This document shows, piece after piece, positions 16,949 to 23,298 of a stretch of DNA of 64,000 nt (positions are counted from its first letter, which is position 1; each line of letters opens with the position of its first letter). The position numbers were made by a program, and so were the translations under genes. The stretch spans positions 604,447-668,446 of the forward strand of contig NZ_BAABFP010000005.1 in the NCBI RefSeq assembly GCF_039541115.1, written 5' to 3'. The stretch comes from Angustibacter luteus. Its GTDB lineage: Bacteria > Actinomycetota > Actinomycetes > Actinomycetales > Angustibacteraceae. The notes below the pieces were generated by a model. The model was not told where the DNA came from, searched no databases, and saw nothing but the letters and a program-made list of their open reading frames with translations.

Positions 16949-16980
16949 GTATCACCGGGGTCCGCGCCCGCTCTGTCTGG
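16949..16980 (+). promoter_or_regulatory. Predicted ECF-sigma promoter, GTATCA-N15-GCTCTGTCTGG, upstream of 58-aa gene
   Basis: GTATCA at 16949-16954 and GCTCTGTCTGG at 16970-16980 are separated by exactly 15 bases. The identical pair with the same spacing occurs on the minus strand upstream of the sigma-factor gene (22538-22569). Two separate exact matches at fixed spacing, with little similarity in the spacer, look like a -35/-10 promoter. It would start transcription about 45 nt before the 58-aa ORF. Recognition by the sigma factor encoded at 21780-22442 is inferred. Confidence 0.72.
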
Positions 16981-17031
16981 TCGTGACGGCAGGACGCCGT
17001 CGCGTACGTCTCCGACGGAGGGGAGCGATCG

Positions 17032-17208
17032 ATGGTGCAGAGCGAGCGCGTGGCGCGAGCCCGCAGGGCCAACGTGGCACGAGCCCGAGCGCGCATCATC
17101 ATCGCCAGGCGACGTGCGCGGGCCGAGGGGGCGGGGTACCAACCGCCACCCGGTGGACCGAGGTGGTCCTGGGATCCGGAGCCGTCGCAGTCCGGAAACA
17201 CTGGCTGA
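17032..17208 (+). CDS. 58-residue Arg-rich peptide of the CHAT/subtilase module
   Basis: A short ORF of 58 codons plus stop. GGAGGGGA (17017-17024) lies 7 nt before the ATG, one of the best Shine-Dalgarno sites in the window. The product has a strongly basic, probably helical N-half (MVQSERVARARRANVARAR, then IIIARRRARAE). The C-half is Pro/Trp-rich and ends acidic to polar (YQPPPGGPRWSWDPEPS). No signal peptide or membrane segment. It has its own predicted sigma-type promoter (16949-16980), and a strong hairpin follows 2 nt after the stop. Because it sits beside two protease genes it could be a substrate, activator or RNA/DNA-binding effector. I recognise no family. Confidence 0.7.
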   Translation: MVQSERVARARRANVARARARIIIARRRARAEGAGYQPPPGGPRWSWDPEPSQSGNTG

Positions 17209-17210
17209 GA

Positions 17211-17247
17211 CGTGGGGGTCGGGAGCAGACTGCTCCCGACCCCCACG
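17211..17247 (+). terminator. Perfect 18-bp inverted repeat after the 58-aa gene
   Basis: Left arm 17211-17228 and right arm 17230-17247 are exact reverse complements, separated by a single A. Allowing a minimal loop, the stem is still about 17 bp and mostly G-C. It lies directly after the 58-aa stop and 75 bp before the subtilase start. No T tract follows. It may terminate, attenuate read-through into the subtilase gene, or protect the small mRNA's 3' end. Confidence 0.72.
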
Positions 17248-17321
17248 ACGCATGTCCTGAGGTGGTCAAGCCCGCCCACCGCAGGTGAGCAGACCCGAGA
17301 CGACGTCGACGAAGGACGGTC

Positions 17322-18557
17322 ATGAACGAGTCCGAGTACTGGAAGAACCGGCGCAAGCAGGCACTGGCCAGGGCGCTCGCGCGCGGTCCCGAAGGGGGCG
17401 GTGTGTCGCAGGTCGACGCCGACGAGGGCTACCTCTACCGACCCGGTCAGCTGCTGTTGGGTCGTGGCGCGGTCGACGAGCTCCGGAGCGAGACGCAGTC
17501 CTCGCGCGTGCGCCCCGTCGAGTCCCTGAACGCTCGCTTCGAGGACCGCGGCGTCGACCTGCAGGCCTGGTCCATCCCGAGCGATGTACGGCTCACCGCA
17601 CTGCAACGCACGCTCGCACCTCGAGCAGAGGCGGTCGGCTCGCACGTCGCCCTGAACCACGTGTTCGCCGGCGAGTGGGTCTACCAGGGCGGTCCGGCCA
17701 CCGAACCGCACCTGGCGCCGGAGCTGCCGGCGCCCGGTCGGATCGACCTGACGTCATCCGAGCCGGTTCTCGCCGTGCTCGACACCGGCGTCACCGATCC
17801 GGCGCACCCCTACTTCGCCGACGCGCTGCTGGACGAGATGGCGGACGACGTGGACGTCCTGGACGAGGACCACAACCGGTACCTGGACACCGAGGCCGGT
17901 CACGGGACATTCATCTGCGGCTTGGCCCAGCGCGTCGCTCCTGGGCTGGCGCTCGAGCAGCGCAAGGTGCTGACTCCCAACGGGTTCGGCGACGACCTGA
18001 GCGTCGCCCTCGGTGTCGCCGAGACGACCGCGCCGGTCATCAACCTGTCGCTGGGCGGGTACACCCGGGACAACCGACGTCCGCGGGCGCTCCGCGCGGC
18101 ACTGGCGGCACTTGACCCCTCGCGGGTCGTCGTTGCCGCAGCCGGCAACAACGGCCACAGCCGGCGGTTCTGGCCGGCGGCCTTCCACGAGGTCATCGCC
18201 GTGGCCGCCTACGACAGTGCGAACGGCCGAACTGCCGACTTCAGCAACTACGGCCCGTGGGTCGATGTCTGCGCGCCCGGCGTGTCCCTGCACAGCTCCT
18301 TCGTTGACGGGCGCCGTGGCGACGCCAGCGACGATCCGACGTTCTCCGGCTGGGCCGCGTGGAGCGGGACGTCGTTCGCCGCACCCCTGGTGGCCGCAGA
18401 GATCGCTCGTCGGGTGGCGGCGGCGTCGGGCAGGAGCGCCCAGGAGGTCGCCGACGAGTTCCTCGGCGAGCTCGGGGACCTGCCGGACGACGGCTACGGG
18501 CGGCGGTACGAGCCCGAGACGAACGTGCGCTTGGCTGACGTGTCGTCTGGGGTCTAG
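17322..18557 (+). CDS. Cytoplasmic subtilisin-like (S8) serine protease
   Basis: 411 residues. The catalytic triad is intact: Asp154 in AVLDTGV, His194 in GHGTFICG, Ser351 in SGTSFAAP, with the oxyanion Asn near 276 (AAAGNNG). Unusually for a subtilase, there is no signal peptide, no membrane segment and no obvious secretion prodomain. Residues 1-140 begin very basic (NRRKQALARALARG) and include YLYRPGQLLLG, a non-catalytic region that may bind a partner or regulate activity. The gene converges on the TPR-CHAT protease gene with one base between the stop codons. It follows the 58-aa gene and its hairpin and is probably co-expressed by read-through. AAGGACGG precedes the ATG. Substrate unknown. 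Confidence 0.9.
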   Translation: MNESEYWKNRRKQALARALARGPEGGGVSQVDADEGYLYRPGQLLLGRGAVDELRSETQSSRVRPVESLNARFEDRGVDLQAWSIPSDVRLTALQRTLAPRAEAVGSHVALNHVFAGEWVYQGGPATEPHLAPELPAPGRIDLTSSEPVLAVLDTGVTDPAHPYFADALLDEMADDVDVLDEDHNRYLDTEAGHGTFICGLAQRVAPGLALEQRKVLTPNGFGDDLSVALGVAETTAPVINLSLGGYTRDNRRPRALRAALAALDPSRVVVAAAGNNGHSRRFWPAAFHEVIAVAAYDSANGRTADFSNYGPWVDVCAPGVSLHSSFVDGRRGDASDDPTFSGWAAWSGTSFAAPLVAAEIARRVAAASGRSAQEVADEFLGELGDLPDDGYGRRYEPETNVRLADVSSGV

Positions 18558-18558
18558 C

Positions 18559-21309
18559 TCAGCAGCCGTAGAGGTCGAACCCGGCCGTGGTGGCGTATCC
18601 GGCCGGGGAATCGAGGTCGAGGGTGCGGCGCGCCGCGAGGAGCGCCGCACCCGCGTCGAGTCCTGCCGCGAGGTTGCGGTGCAAGGCGTCCATCAGCACC
18701 GCCGTCTCCTGGTCAGGTGTCGGCAGCGTCGTCGCGATCACCCCGGCAGACCCCATGGTCAGCAGCGCGTGCGCGACCCCGAGCAGCTGGTTCCCGGGCA
18801 GCACCGCGGCTGCGGCCGAGTGGCAGGCGGCCAGGACGACGAGCTCCGGCGGCCGCGCCAGGCCCTCGAGGTCGTAGACGGTGAGGTCGCCGTCGGCCAG
18901 CCGCAGGGAGGAGAGCAGCGGGTTGTCGGAGCGGAAGGTGCCGTGGGCGGCGATGTGCGCCACCGAGGCGCCGTCCAACAGCTCGAGCGTGCGGGCGACC
19001 GTCGCTGCGTCGCCGAACTCGACGGTCGCGTAGCGCGCCCGGTGCTCCGGCAGGGTTGGCGCCAGCGTGACACCGGGACCGGTCACGAACACCTCGGGTC
19101 GGTCGACGCTCTTCGGCGCTCGCATCGACCTGTTGGCCCGCGCTGCGAGCCACGCCGTCCCAGAGCGGACCAGGTGCACCGGGATATCGGTCAGGCTCGG
19201 CAGCAGCCCCCAGGGAACCGCGTGCAGCGCCTCGGTAGGTGCGATCACCAGCCCGGGCACGTCCTGCGGCGACCCCAGCTGAAGCGCAGCGCGAACGGGC
19301 TCGACCAGCACATCGTCGAGGTGGGACGCCGCAGCCTTGGCTCCGGCCAGCGCAGCCGCAAGGGAGGCCTGGCTGCCGCGTCCGGTGGCGAGCCTGGCCA
19401 GCGCGAACTGCAGGTGCTCCAGTCCGTCCTCCACGTCGCTGACCAGACCCAGGTCGAAGACACGAACCCGCGCTGCTCCGGAGCCGGCGACCGTCAGGGC
19501 GTGCAGTCCGCCGTCCGAGACCACGTACTCCACGAAGCCCCGCCCGGCCAGGCCGGCGGCCAGCTCCACGGCCGCCGCCGGCGGCAGCGGCGGGCTCCAC
19601 GCGCCAGGCTCGGTGCGCCGGCTCAGCCGCACGACGTCGCGCTCCCGGGCCGCGAGGGTGGCAGCAGCGGCACGGTCACCGGACGCGCCCACTGCTGCCT
19701 CCTGCGCCTCGGTCGAGGCCCGACGCAGTCGCTCGATCGCCAGCGACAGCTCGGGATCACGCGGGGGCCGGACCGGTCGGGACCGCAGGTCCTGCCCACG
19801 CCAGCGCTCGACCTCACGGAGCAACCGGTCGGCCGAGCCGCTCTCCAGTGCGACCCTGATGCCCACCCGCGCGAGGTCCTGCGCGATCGCGGGCACGTGC
19901 GCTTGGAGGTCACTGGCGCCCAACCCTGCTCGGTGGCGGGACAGCACCGTCATGCCGGCCCGGACCGCGCTGGCGGCGCCCTGGACGTCACCACGGCGCT
20001 GGCGCAGCAGTGCCGCCGCGTGCCAGTAGCGGATACGCGTCACGGACGACGCGCCTCCCGAGGCGGCGGACGCTTCGGCCAGCAGGTCACCCGCCACGTC
20101 GTGCCGTCCCGCGGCCGAGGCCATGCGCGCGGCGGCCAGTCGGGCCTCGATGGCGGCGTCCGCCCAGCGGGCGTCGTCCAGCGCGGTGACCAGGCCACGG
20201 GCACGTCGGACCAGCCCGGTGTCACCACCGTCGTCCTCCAGCGCCAGCAGCTCGAGCAGTCGGGCCTGGAGCACCCAGCCCGCTCGCCGCTGCTTCCCGG
20301 CGAGCTCGCGCGCCGACCGGGCGTAGTCGGCGGAGCTGGCGGCGTCGTGGTCCAACAAGGTGATCCGCGCCAGGAGCGCTTCGCACTCCATCAGGTCCGC
20401 GCCCAGCTGCGCCTGCGCCAGCGCTACGTGGGCTCTCTCGGCCAGCTCACGGGCTTCGCCGACCACCCCGCAGGAGAGCATCAACGACGCCCGGTCAAGC
20501 AGGCGCAGCCCGACGATGTACCCGTGCCGATCGCAGATGGGATCGGCCTCGTCGAAGCGCTCGAGCGCGAGCACGACGTCACCACGCTCTCGGGCCAGAC
20601 AGCCCAGGTTCCAGGTGATCGCTGCCGCGTCCATCTCGCGTCCGCCGGCCAGGTGCAGGTCGCGGGCCCGAACCAGATCGACCTCGGCCGCGGACAGCTC
20701 CCCCTGGAAGGCGTGCAGGATGCCCCGGTTGCACCGCGCCCTGGACTCCCAGACGTCGTCCCGCGCCTTCTGCAGCACCGGAACGGCGTCGTCGTAGATG
20801 TCCAACGCGTCCCCGAAGCGCCCGCAACGCTGCAAGATCAAGGCTCGCTGTGCCTGCAGTCGTGCCTGCGCCACTCCCTGCAGCACGTCAGCCGCCGTCG
20901 CGGACTGGCGCAGCGCCTGTGAGGTCTTGCCCAGGTCCAGCAGCACGAACGACCGGGTCATCCGGGCCTCGGCGGCGCTCTGCAGGTCGCCGGCCTGGGT
21001 GGCCGAGCGGACCGCGCGCAGCAACGCGTCCTCCGCGGTGGCGAGGTCGCCCTTGGCCCGGGCGCCCAGCCCGAGCGCCCGCCAGGCCAGCGTCCGCGCG
21101 GCGGCGTCCGGACGGCCCCGGGCCACCGCCAGCGCCCGCTCGGCCCGCGCGATCGCCGCGGAAGGATCGGTGCCGACGAGCTCCATGGCCTCGGCCGCGA
21201 GCCGAGCAGCGTCCGAGACCACGACCGGGAGGTCGGTGCCCGGGCGCGACGGCGCGACCGCCTGCTTCGGGACGGTCATCGTGGGCGCTGGCTCAGTCTG
21301 GGTCACCAC
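18559..21309 (-). CDS. TPR-CHAT protein (caspase-like cysteine protease)
   Basis: 916 residues. Residues ~35-450 are TPR-like helical repeats (AIARAERALAVARG, AEDALLRAVRSATQAGD, ALRQSATAADVLQ). The C-terminal ~280 residues form a CHAT domain, a caspase-relative fold. His789 in AHIAAHGTF and Cys829 in VVLAACHS give the expected His-Cys dyad, so it is probably an active peptidase. It is the last gene of sigma factor - 149-aa protein - CHAT, starting 24 bp after the 149-aa stop. GGAG lies 7 nt before the GTG. TPR-CHAT proteases in other systems are switched on by a partner binding the TPRs and cleave a specific regulator; that this one acts on the sigma pathway or the peptide is inference. Confidence 0.9.
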   Translation of the reverse strand: MVTQTEPAPTMTVPKQAVAPSRPGTDLPVVVSDAARLAAEAMELVGTDPSAAIARAERALAVARGRPDAAARTLAWRALGLGARAKGDLATAEDALLRAVRSATQAGDLQSAAEARMTRSFVLLDLGKTSQALRQSATAADVLQGVAQARLQAQRALILQRCGRFGDALDIYDDAVPVLQKARDDVWESRARCNRGILHAFQGELSAAEVDLVRARDLHLAGGREMDAAAITWNLGCLARERGDVVLALERFDEADPICDRHGYIVGLRLLDRASLMLSCGVVGEARELAERAHVALAQAQLGADLMECEALLARITLLDHDAASSADYARSARELAGKQRRAGWVLQARLLELLALEDDGGDTGLVRRARGLVTALDDARWADAAIEARLAAARMASAAGRHDVAGDLLAEASAASGGASSVTRIRYWHAAALLRQRRGDVQGAASAVRAGMTVLSRHRAGLGASDLQAHVPAIAQDLARVGIRVALESGSADRLLREVERWRGQDLRSRPVRPPRDPELSLAIERLRRASTEAQEAAVGASGDRAAAATLAARERDVVRLSRRTEPGAWSPPLPPAAAVELAAGLAGRGFVEYVVSDGGLHALTVAGSGAARVRVFDLGLVSDVEDGLEHLQFALARLATGRGSQASLAAALAGAKAAASHLDDVLVEPVRAALQLGSPQDVPGLVIAPTEALHAVPWGLLPSLTDIPVHLVRSGTAWLAARANRSMRAPKSVDRPEVFVTGPGVTLAPTLPEHRARYATVEFGDAATVARTLELLDGASVAHIAAHGTFRSDNPLLSSLRLADGDLTVYDLEGLARPPELVVLAACHSAAAAVLPGNQLLGVAHALLTMGSAGVIATTLPTPDQETAVLMDALHRNLAAGLDAGAALLAARRTLDLDSPAGYATTAGFDLYGC

Positions 21310-21333: not shown

Positions 21334-21783
21334 TCACAAGGAAACCCATTCGGTACGAAGTCGGCGGCCGTCGGCGGTCGTGAGCCGCAGGCTGAGCGTC
21401 CGCGCGCTCACCTCGGCCCGGAACCGACCCATCGAGTCGACGGCGATGGGCTCGACGCCGGCCAGGGTGTGCACGAACATCTCGCGGACCGCGCCGGTGA
21501 CCTGCCCGACGAGTGCCCAGCCGTGCCGCTCGCGCCGGGAGCCGAGGTCGATCTCCAGCCCCTCCAGGGCGAAGGACAGCCAGTTGTCGGAGTCGCCGCG
21601 CACCAGCGTGGTGGCCATGGACTCCACGAGCGGGATCAGCTCGGCGTCCAGGTCGCGCAGGATGAACGCCGCGCGGGCCGCCTCGCTGACCACCTCGGGC
21701 ACGGGGTCGAGCTGGTCGTACATCGCAGCCAGCTCGGTGAGCAGCCGCTCGTCCGGGTCCGGGGGCGTGATGATGGGCATCAT
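21334..21783 (-). CDS. 149-aa conserved protein between sigma factor and CHAT protease
   Basis: The N-terminal half is helical (ERLLTELAAMYDQLDPVPEVVSEAARAAFILRDLDAELIPLV). The C-terminal half has alternating beta character and a GQVTGAVREMFVH...VDSMGRFRAEV pattern like a carboxypeptidase-regulatory or Ig-like sandwich, ending LRTEWVSL. No HxxxCxxC zinc anti-sigma motif and no membrane segment are present. It overlaps the sigma gene by ATGA, behind GGGAGGGG, so sigma and this protein are made together. By position it is the best candidate for a sigma-binding regulator or an adaptor linking sigma and CHAT. I recall similar proteins next to ECF sigma genes in other actinobacteria, but no experimental role. 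Confidence 0.75.
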   Translation of the reverse strand: MMPIITPPDPDERLLTELAAMYDQLDPVPEVVSEAARAAFILRDLDAELIPLVESMATTLVRGDSDNWLSFALEGLEIDLGSRRERHGWALVGQVTGAVREMFVHTLAGVEPIAVDSMGRFRAEVSARTLSLRLTTADGRRLRTEWVSL

Positions 21784-22442
21784 CTGTCCCCTCCCTTCGT
21801 GTCGTCGTCGCCGTCGTTGGGGTTGAACCCCATGTCCAGCAACACGTCCTTGAGTCGTTGCAGGCAGCGCCCCCGGGTGGGGCCGATACTGCCGATGGGC
21901 ATGCCGAACGCCTCGGACACCGCTTCGTACCGCGGTGGCGGCGAGGCCGACAGCACCCGGAGCAGGCGCTGGCAGCGGTCGTCCAGCTCTCGCACGGCGC
22001 GCAACAGGGTGGCGTCCCGCTCGCTGCTGAGCAGGGACTCCTCCACGCCGATGCCGTCGTCCGGCATGGTCTCGAGCATGTCGTCGGCCCCGTCGCGCCG
22101 TTCGCGCTGGCGCCGGGTGACGATGCGCAGGGACTCACGCCTGGAGGTCGTGGCGAGCCAGGCGCCGAGGCGCTCGGGCTCCTGGATGGCACCGAGGTGC
22201 TCGACGAGGCGCAACCAGGTGGTCTGCACCGCGTCGCCGCAGTCGGCCGTGTTGAGCCGGTGCGAGCGAGCCACCGACCAGACCAACCGCTCGTAGCGCC
22301 GGACGATCTCGTCCCACGCCGACTGGGCGCCGTTCGCGGCGCGCGCGAGCAGGTCCGCGACGCTGGCGTCGCCGACCGGAACGTTCGTCGCGGCCGACGG
22401 CTGCGACGTCGCGTTACCACCCGACGCGATACCGGCGCTCAC
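21780..22442 (-). CDS. ECF-type sigma-70 family factor
   Basis: 220 residues. After a low-complexity start, sigma region 2 spans ~28-105 (SAWDEIVRRYERLVWSVARSH, DAVQTTWLRLVEHL, WLATTSRRESLRIVTRR). An acidic linker follows, then region 4 at ~145-205 (RELDDRCQRLLRVLS, YEAVSEAFGMPIGSIGPTRGRCLQRL). Regions 1 and 3 are absent, as in ECF factors. It probably directs RNA polymerase to the GTATCA-N15-GCTCTGTCTGG elements, one of which lies upstream of this gene, so it should be autoregulated. The GTG at 22442 has GGGGAG upstream; longer starts, up to 22634, would lie above the predicted transcription start and are rejected. Confidence 0.88.
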   Translation of the reverse strand: MSAGIASGGNATSQPSAATNVPVGDASVADLLARAANGAQSAWDEIVRRYERLVWSVARSHRLNTADCGDAVQTTWLRLVEHLGAIQEPERLGAWLATTSRRESLRIVTRRQRERRDGADDMLETMPDDGIGVEESLLSSERDATLLRAVRELDDRCQRLLRVLSASPPPRYEAVSEAFGMPIGSIGPTRGRCLQRLKDVLLDMGFNPNDGDDDTKGGDR

Positions 22443-22537: not shown

Positions 22538-22569
22538 CCAGACAGAGCAGAACGGGGGCATCCTGATAC
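22538..22569 (-). promoter_or_regulatory. Predicted autoregulatory ECF-sigma promoter, GTATCA-N15-GCTCTGTCTGG
   Basis: Read on the minus strand, GTATCA is at 22569-22564 and GCTCTGTCTGG at 22548-22538, 15 bases apart. The pair matches the element before the 58-aa gene base for base. It would start transcription around 22531, about 90 nt before the sigma GTG. Assignment to the module's own sigma factor is inferred. Confidence 0.72.
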
Positions 22570-22698: not shown

Positions 22699-23298
22699 AT
22701 GTCCGCACCCCGCTCATCCGCCCGCGATCTCGCCCTCATCGCCTCGTTCGCCGCCCTCATCGCGGTGCTCGGGCTGCCCGGGTCGATCAGCCTGTTCGGC
22801 AACGCCGTGCCGATCACGCTGCAGACGCTGGGCGTGATGCTGGCGGGCTCGATCCTCGGGTGGCGGCGCGGGTTCCTCGCGGTCCTGGTCTTCCTCGTGC
22901 TGGTCGCCGCCGGCCTGCCCCTGCTGGCCGGCGGGCGGGGTGGCCTCGCGGTGTTCACCGGCCCTAGCGCCGGCTACCTGATCGGCTGGCCGATCGGCGC
23001 CGCCGTGATCGGCTGGCTGGTCGAGCGCAAGCTGCCCGCCTACCCCGTCTGGTGGGGGTTCACCGCCAACATCATCGGCGGCATCGGCGTGATCTACCTG
23101 ATCGGCATCCCCGTGCAGGCCGAGGTGCTGGGCACCAAGACGGTCGTGGCGACCGCGATCAGCGCGCTCGTCTACCTCCCGGGCGACCTCGCGAAGGCGG
23201 TCATCGCCACCTTCGTCGCGGCTGGCGTCCACCGCGGCTACCCGAACGTGCTGCCCGCACCCCACCGCGAGCGTGAGGTCGCCGAGTCGGCGCACTGA
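22699..23298 (+). CDS. bioY: Biotin transporter substrate-binding subunit BioY
   Basis: 199-residue integral membrane protein, the S component of an energy-coupling-factor transporter. Six hydrophobic stretches alternate with short loops. The family motifs NAVPITLQTLGVMLAG, GGRGGLAVFTGPSAGYLIG and the YLPGDLAKA segment near the end are present. It binds biotin outside the membrane and works with BioM and BioN, encoded three genes downstream in the same direction. First gene of the operon, divergent from the sigma-factor gene. ATG with GAGAGG upstream. Confidence 0.92.
   Translation: MSAPRSSARDLALIASFAALIAVLGLPGSISLFGNAVPITLQTLGVMLAGSILGWRRGFLAVLVFLVLVAAGLPLLAGGRGGLAVFTGPSAGYLIGWPIGAAVIGWLVERKLPAYPVWWGFTANIIGGIGVIYLIGIPVQAEVLGTKTVVATAISALVYLPGDLAKAVIATFVAAGVHRGYPNVLPAPHREREVAESAH

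Follow-up and report, generated by a model that had tools for sequence, protein, structure and literature searches.

What controls the expression of a gene cluster in which a caspase-like protease, a subtilase and a sigma factor are encoded side by side? This question is raised by a 64,000-base stretch of the Angustibacter luteus genome (contig NZ_BAABFP010000005.1, positions 604,447 to 668,446; hereafter the window), in which two converging transcription units, together forming what we call the module, are preceded by the same bipartite element, GTATCA-N15-GCTCTGTCTGG. Behind the first copy (promoter 1; 16949-16980, plus strand) come a 58-codon open reading frame (ORF), a hairpin and a subtilase gene, and behind the second (promoter 2; 22538-22569, minus strand) come genes for a sigma factor of the extracytoplasmic function (ECF) type, a 149-residue protein and a TPR-CHAT protease. 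Sequence comparison indicates that this element is very probably an ECF-kind promoter read by the module's own sigma factor, which would drive both its own operon and the opposite unit.

When up to three mismatches are allowed, the pattern matches the window only at these two places, both times perfectly and with no third copy, and shuffled windows yield a mean of 0.07 matches (two matches in 0 of 100 shuffles). The original prediction, which had noticed 6 + 11 identical bases at 15-base spacing around unlike spacers, had judged chance negligible and had seen no third copy in the window, is borne out on all these points. In promoter 1, the predicted −35 box GTATCA occupies 16949-16954 and the −10 core CTCTG 16971-16975, within the 11 identical bases 16970-16980, followed by GTGA, an RTGA-type start region, at 16983-16986. 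In promoter 2, the corresponding positions are 22569-22564 for GTATCA and 22547-22543 for CTCTG (within 22548-22538), with ATGA at 22535-22532. Only the boxes agree, the spacers being different, and 7 of the 10 bases behind each copy are identical between the two.

The element is not peculiar to this species. The only other genome available for the genus (locus L034) has GTATCA-N16-CCTCTGTCTGG ahead of the sigma gene and GTATCA-N15-GCTCTGGTAGG ahead of the peptide ORF, and another genome of the family (locus L035) has GTATCA-N15-CCTCTGTACAG ahead of the sigma gene, a site that was read directly in the sequence since it falls beyond the three-mismatch list. With its 4460 bases, the contig of the latter locus does not reach a peptide, and a further family genome, 62% complete, gave no match to the sigma factor. 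In locus alignments the boxes are conserved amid otherwise diverged DNA, and the element recurs order- and phylum-wide, in keeping with the original expectation that it should precede orthologous modules. A chance match or a duplicated intergenic sequence, which could appeal to there being only two copies in the window, is contradicted by spacers that differ while the boxes agree and by conservation across genera; this origin of the pair was rejected and has next to no probability.

How far does the association reach? The sigma factor was found at E 1e-25 in 69 of 297 genomes of the order, and 60 of these places were taken as loci, 42 of which have tblastn matches to both CHAT and subtilase. 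In these 42 loci, GTATCA-N15-17-C(T/A)C occurs 51 times in the 331,630 bases lying within 1500 bases of module matches versus three times in the remaining 470,190 bases (reversed control, 0 inside and 3 outside), and 36 of the 42 modules have at least one such site. In loci in which the subtilase comes first, a site usually lies ahead of the subtilase gene, often with a second, divergent one. The first ORFs picked behind 167 sites comprise 34 subtilases, 29 sigma factors, 13 members of the 149-residue family, 3 CHAT proteins and 88 unlabelled picks; the picker took wrong frames in some rows, and the unlabelled picks include chance sites in coding sequence.

Plain hexamer enrichment inside versus outside modules was tried and abandoned, GC-rich words topping the list (top 14), and was replaced by a test conditioned on spacing. 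In the order-level set, CTCT or CTCC follows GTATCA in 46 of 82 cases (base rate 1.4%), which ranks GTATCA first of 3366 hexamers, in what is no independent test of the motif since it was first seen there. An independent, phylum-level set consists of the best 80 named loci from a scan of species genomes with a sigma alignment, picked with the help of a region-4 peptide pattern, and spans, judging by title, Actinomycetes, Acidimicrobiia, Thermoleophilia and Nitriliruptoria among others; 47 of these best 80 have CHAT and subtilase tblastn matches. One locus, L097, sits on the same contig as L035 and was dropped for this test. In the remaining 79, CTCT stands at offset 16 or 17 behind 48 of the 139 distinct GTATCA occurrences, compared with a base rate of 0.3%, GTATCA ranks first of 3587 hexamers, and the offset profile (140 in all) has 21 occurrences at 16, 27 at 17 and no more than 3 at any of the remaining offsets between 0 and 37.

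What emerges order- and phylum-wide is a two-part general form, GTATCA-N16/17-CTC(T/C)(G/T). Across both sets, an accepted −10 box (from a list made after seeing the sites) lies at N15-17 behind 94 of 235 GTATCA, 11 of 106 GTATCT and fewer than 5% of hexamers with any other single change. The strict form GTATCA-N16/17-CTC is present in 34 of 42 order-level and 21 of 47 phylum-level modules, with none in the control of either set. All 11 Lentzea loci carry GTATCT-N16-CTCC ahead of the sigma gene and no GTATCA site, and when these are set aside and CATC and GTCT are allowed as −10 boxes, 31 of 36 phylum-level modules have a site, so that GTATCT in Lentzea and the variant −10 boxes would account for part of the missing strict sites. 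With a permissive pattern, 38 of the 42 order-level and 43 of the 47 phylum-level modules have a site, the reversed control being present in 0 and 4 modules, respectively. The full 11-mer was rejected as the −10 box, only CTC(T/C)(G/T) being general: comparison supports the −35/−10 shape originally proposed, with a −10 that resembles CTCTG rather than the whole 11-base block.

If the module's sigma factor reads this promoter, the motif should follow it from genome to genome, and this is where a different reader, another sigma factor of the cell regulating the module while the module's own factor has other targets, has to be weighed. GTATCA-N15/16-SCTCYK was counted in the 297 order genomes split by presence of the sigma factor. 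The 69 genomes that have it contain 216 sites (control, 49; mean 3.13), with a site in 60 of them, and the 228 that lack it contain 248 (control, 407; mean 1.09), with a site in 133. The motif is enriched in the genomes holding the sigma factor, and those without it, taken together, are not enriched (Mann-Whitney test, 8e-13; Fisher's test on sites against controls, 1e-34). These figures carry no correction for relatedness, and a genome was taken to lack the sigma factor when none of its scored candidates (at most 10) passed the E cut-off. Of the four families that were compared singly, three show a motif load that tracks this sigma factor, with means with and without it of 4.79 and 0.67 (f13), 2.83 and 0.55 (f17), and 4.00 and 1.00 (f19). 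There is no shortage of candidates for another reader, a first look at four family genomes giving 7 to 38 sigma-like proteins (not all of them sigma factors), but loci as distant as those of Solirubrobacter (L104, L108) and Lentzea also have the box ahead of their sigma gene, and we consider recognition by another factor improbable.

Several observations weigh against recognition by the module's own sigma factor. (i) The 1500-base margin behind the count of 51 versus 3 was picked after looking, and margins of 700 and 2500 give 33 inside and 21 outside, and 52 and 2, respectively. (ii) The strict form is absent from 8 of the 42 order-level modules and from 26 of the 47 at phylum level, and even the permissive site is missing from 4 of 42 and 4 of 47 (L045, L055, L056, L086, L105, L121, L136 and L145, of which L055 and L056 carry GTATCA-N16-CAC). 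(iii) In the remaining family, f8, the mean is 1.20 with the sigma factor versus 1.62 without, perhaps because the −10 box there reads CTCCC, which the pattern excludes. (iv) Counts of sites and sigma factors are not independent, since the two share ancestry, and the phylum-level set, having been picked by a region-4 peptide pattern, cannot test the region-4 helix.

Two half-sites at fixed spacing would also suit a transcription regulator, be it activator or repressor, binding boxes that are no promoter at all. Against this, the two halves differ in sequence and do not form an inverted pair, and the geometry (16/17 spacing, a start-like RTGA signal, coding starts at 32 bases or more) is that of a promoter, which leaves a regulator very improbable. 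In a consensus built from 132 distinct GTATC(A/T)-N16/17-CTC(C/T) sites, the preferred bases are G, then A or G, then T before the −35 box, G after it, and G or T after CTC(C/T). A weak RTGA follows at offsets 10-13 past the start of CTC (39 occurrences), and transcription would probably start about 10-13 bases past the first −10 base. RTGA peaks again at offset 30 (15 occurrences), as we read it at least partly because of start codons in the related Lentzea loci. At 23 of 44 sigma-proximal sites, including those of L034 and L035, an in-frame start codon follows the first base of the −35 box at a distance of 32-44 bases. In the window this is an ATG at 22535-22533, 34 bases past that base and with no stop before the GTG start of the sigma gene, and leaderless translation of a longer sigma factor from an ATG at the predicted transcription start is possible.

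The sigma gene (21780-22442, minus strand) has a GTG start and encodes a predicted ECF-type factor with region 2 and a divergent region 4 containing GSIGPTRGRC. This protein matches the sigma70-ECF model TIGR02937 over regions 2 to 4 (residues 42-200 of 220; 1.3e-17, 63.9 bits, cut-off 42.9), has a Pfam match in region 2 only (3.1e-11) and has ECF sigma factors as its best PDB profile matches. Within region 4 lies the sequence GSIG(P)TRxR, invariant at most positions across 18 sequences, in the place where a solved SigE reads GTVRSRIHRGR. So unusual a region 4 fits an unusual −35 box, and the pairing should be useful for understanding sigma specificity.

These elements suggest the following mechanism. 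RNA polymerase carrying the module sigma factor would recognise GTATCA as −35 and CTCTG (more widely CTC(T/C)(G/T)) as −10, 16 or 17 bases apart, reading promoter 2 into the operon of sigma factor, 149-residue partner and TPR-CHAT protease and promoter 1 into the peptide ORF and, past the hairpin, the subtilase gene, and it would probably also drive one distant gene for a small protein. After synthesis, the activity of the sigma factor is presumably governed by the partner protein and by the proteases that the module encodes, and we infer that, once freed, it would engage a positive loop on its own promoter.

Does the regulon extend beyond the module? The home genome (4.16 Mb, 11 contigs) was scanned as the original prediction had proposed. 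At fixed overall length and up to two mismatches, the scan returns the two perfect window copies and a two-mismatch match at C5:773128 (reversed control, 1), and when the spacer is freed GTATCA-N16/17-CTC has 12 matches versus 1 in the reversed control. A third copy with both halves exact, GTATCA-N16-GCTCTGTCTGG, lies at C2:136541-136566 on the minus strand (L188:9542-9567), and the fixed-length scans missed it because a 15-base spacer had been assumed; a fixed 15-base spacer was therefore rejected as part of the element's definition. The exact N15 pair is confined to the module, and beyond the window there is one further intergenic copy, whose spacer has 16 bases. Two of the 12 matches are those of the module, and five (L177, L178, L183, L184, L185) fall within long reading frames whose GC content at third codon positions (GC3) is high. 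The C2 copy is a convincing candidate for an additional site, located 20 bases past the stop of a gene that we take to be fpg; 77 bases further on comes the start (ATG) of a basic ORF of 79 codons (GC3 0.94), which has no Pfam or NCBIfam match at E 0.1. The evidence is weaker for C7:102308 (minus strand; −35 start at L189:7309), where GTATCA-N17-CTCTT lies 59 bases before the ATG of a gene (L189:3795-7250) for an 1151-residue TPR protein whose Pfam matches include TcA_TcB_BD (2.2e-21). Neither this gene nor the 79-codon ORF has an orthologue in the other three family genomes.

Elsewhere, 40 of the listed sites were sampled from seven other genomes. In four species of one genus (G284, G062, G188 and G015), the predicted promoter recurs at almost the same distance from a common set of additional genes, namely an AAA ATPase (96-97 bases, four species), a PIG-L deacetylase (103-116 bases, four species) and a dehydrogenase-like protein (81-84 bases, three species), as labelled by Pfam on one copy of each. 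Fourteen of the 40 are covered by a long high-GC3 frame, in some cases the downstream gene's own, and part of the sample is probably chance. The idea of one regulon for both arms stands insofar as the element precedes both units, and has to be amended for the third copy, for the extra sites in other genera and for the hairpin before the subtilase gene. Among order-level loci, a caspase-domain protein follows a site in L049. A HopA1-domain protein (Pfam on the L072 copy) and its relatives in L074, L075 and L076 are preceded by a GTATCA site that points away from the subtilase gene, and L069, L079, L080, L085, L091 and L093 have a second GTATCA site behind the module, about 5.3-9.2 kb past the sigma match.

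Where does this system stand among known ones? RpoE and SigW have autoregulated ECF promoters with, typically though not definingly, a GGAAC-type −35 (AAC) and a CGTC-type −10. The module resembles them in having two boxes about 16 bases apart ahead of the sigma operon, and such fixed-spacing boxes are found upstream of orthologous sigma operons, but it has GTATCA, with no AAC, and CTCTG instead of a CGTC-type −10. The element would belong to a familiar kind, the sigma promoter under autoregulation, yet its sequence class is unusual and is tied to a protease module far beyond the genus. By gene context, not by group model, the sigma factor fits ECF54, an actinobacterial group whose conserved gene neighbourhood, according to the consulted passages of PMC8999054, includes carboxypeptidase, subtilase and CHAT proteins. 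Given these neighbours, proteolytic control without a classical anti-sigma factor is proposed there, and those passages give no promoter for the group. The likeness lies in the subtilase and CHAT genes beside the sigma gene, in the window as in the 42 order-level and 47 phylum-level loci; the difference is that the window's 149-residue partner has no Pfam carboxypeptidase match at E 0.1. A gene under a site in L133 does match CarboxypepD_reg (5.9e-08).

The TPR-CHAT gene (18559-21309, minus strand; Pfam CHAT, 8e-29) encodes a protein that weakly matches five PDB sequences at E 0.01 (E 0.0016-0.0046), all named CHAT domain protein, which from their codes we take to belong to type III-E CRISPR complexes. 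In the latter, as far as the consulted part of PMC10028731 describes, the TPR-CHAT protease Csx29 cuts Csx30, an inhibitor of an ECF sigma factor, so that both systems encode such a protease with such a factor. The module differs in adding a subtilase and, compared by length only, in a partner of 149 residues versus 565 for Csx30; Cas families were absent from the five module proteins in Pfam, NCBIfam and PADLOC, a search covering these proteins alone and the peptide off frame. In EACC2-caspase neighbourhoods a caspase-like protease, a TPR protein and an ECF sigma factor also occur together, with a predicted transcription response and, in what we saw of PMC8195603, with DUF1822 and EACC2; the module's Pfam matches at E 0.1 do not include DUF1822, and EACC2 was not searched. 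It is tempting, if rather doubtful, to speculate that a dedicated actinobacterial promoter class marks the regulon of a caspase-like alarm, in which a stress-activated TPR-CHAT protease frees the sigma factor, perhaps by cutting the 149-residue partner, and the sigma factor then fires its own operon and lineage-specific effectors, the CHAT-sigma arm of type III-E CRISPR being a relative.

No account of this promoter was found in the titles and abstracts surveyed, papers naming both an ECF sigma factor and GTATCA not having been examined in text, and a predicted ECF54 group motif may already be in print. Nor was an account of what sigma-CHAT-subtilase modules do found in the consulted parts of PMC8195603, PMC8999054, PMC8103513 and PMC10028731. 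Since the promoter can be recognised from sequence alone, module function becomes testable: the promoter predicts start sites, can serve directly as a reporter, and singles out candidate effector genes wherever a genome holds the sigma factor. A switch common to many actinobacteria could in this way reveal the genes turned on by a poorly understood caspase-like system.

As for the remaining features, promoter 1 begins 27 bases past the end (16921) of a same-strand gene for a YpfJ-type zinc peptidase, and on the other side of promoter 2 a gene starting at 22699 is presumably bioY. The partner gene (21334-21783, minus strand), whose start overlaps the sigma stop, encodes a conserved protein predicted to have two helices followed by beta strands and without Pfam match at E 0.1. 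This protein may hold the sigma factor, and the model gave that role no fold support: a known anti-sigma fold was discarded, no PDB entry matching the model at E ≤0.001 (best match, a copper-resistance protein, 2.1e-03; mean predicted local distance difference test score 86.9, predicted template modelling score 0.56).

On the opposite strand, the basic 58-codon ORF (17032-17208; pI about 12) is preceded by GGAGGGGAG, which resembles a ribosome-binding site. Its frame, start and stop are kept in L034, with differences by codon position of 23/24/26 over the 58 codons and no synonymous bias in this comparison. In the correct frame it has no Pfam match at E 0.1 and, in NCBIfam, only sub-cut-off MinE matches (0.025 and 0.042). 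No orthologue was found by tblastn at 1e-3 in the order- and phylum-level loci, which says little because the peptide of L034, present by position, was missed too. The gene for the subtilase, a serine protease (17322-18557; Pfam Peptidase_S8, 3.1e-28), is separated from it by a hairpin (17211-17247) with a perfect 17-bp stem and a 3-base loop, lying directly 3' of the peptide stop. It folds at −42.1 kcal/mol (17195-17260; z −7.8), its 21-base arm has a single genomic place within two mismatches, and it is almost unchanged in L034. This candidate terminator or attenuator could make the peptide the main product of its unit. In six Lentzea loci (L150, L154, L157, L160, L165 and L173), a conserved palindrome, TTGATCAA, lies between the CHAT and subtilase genes.
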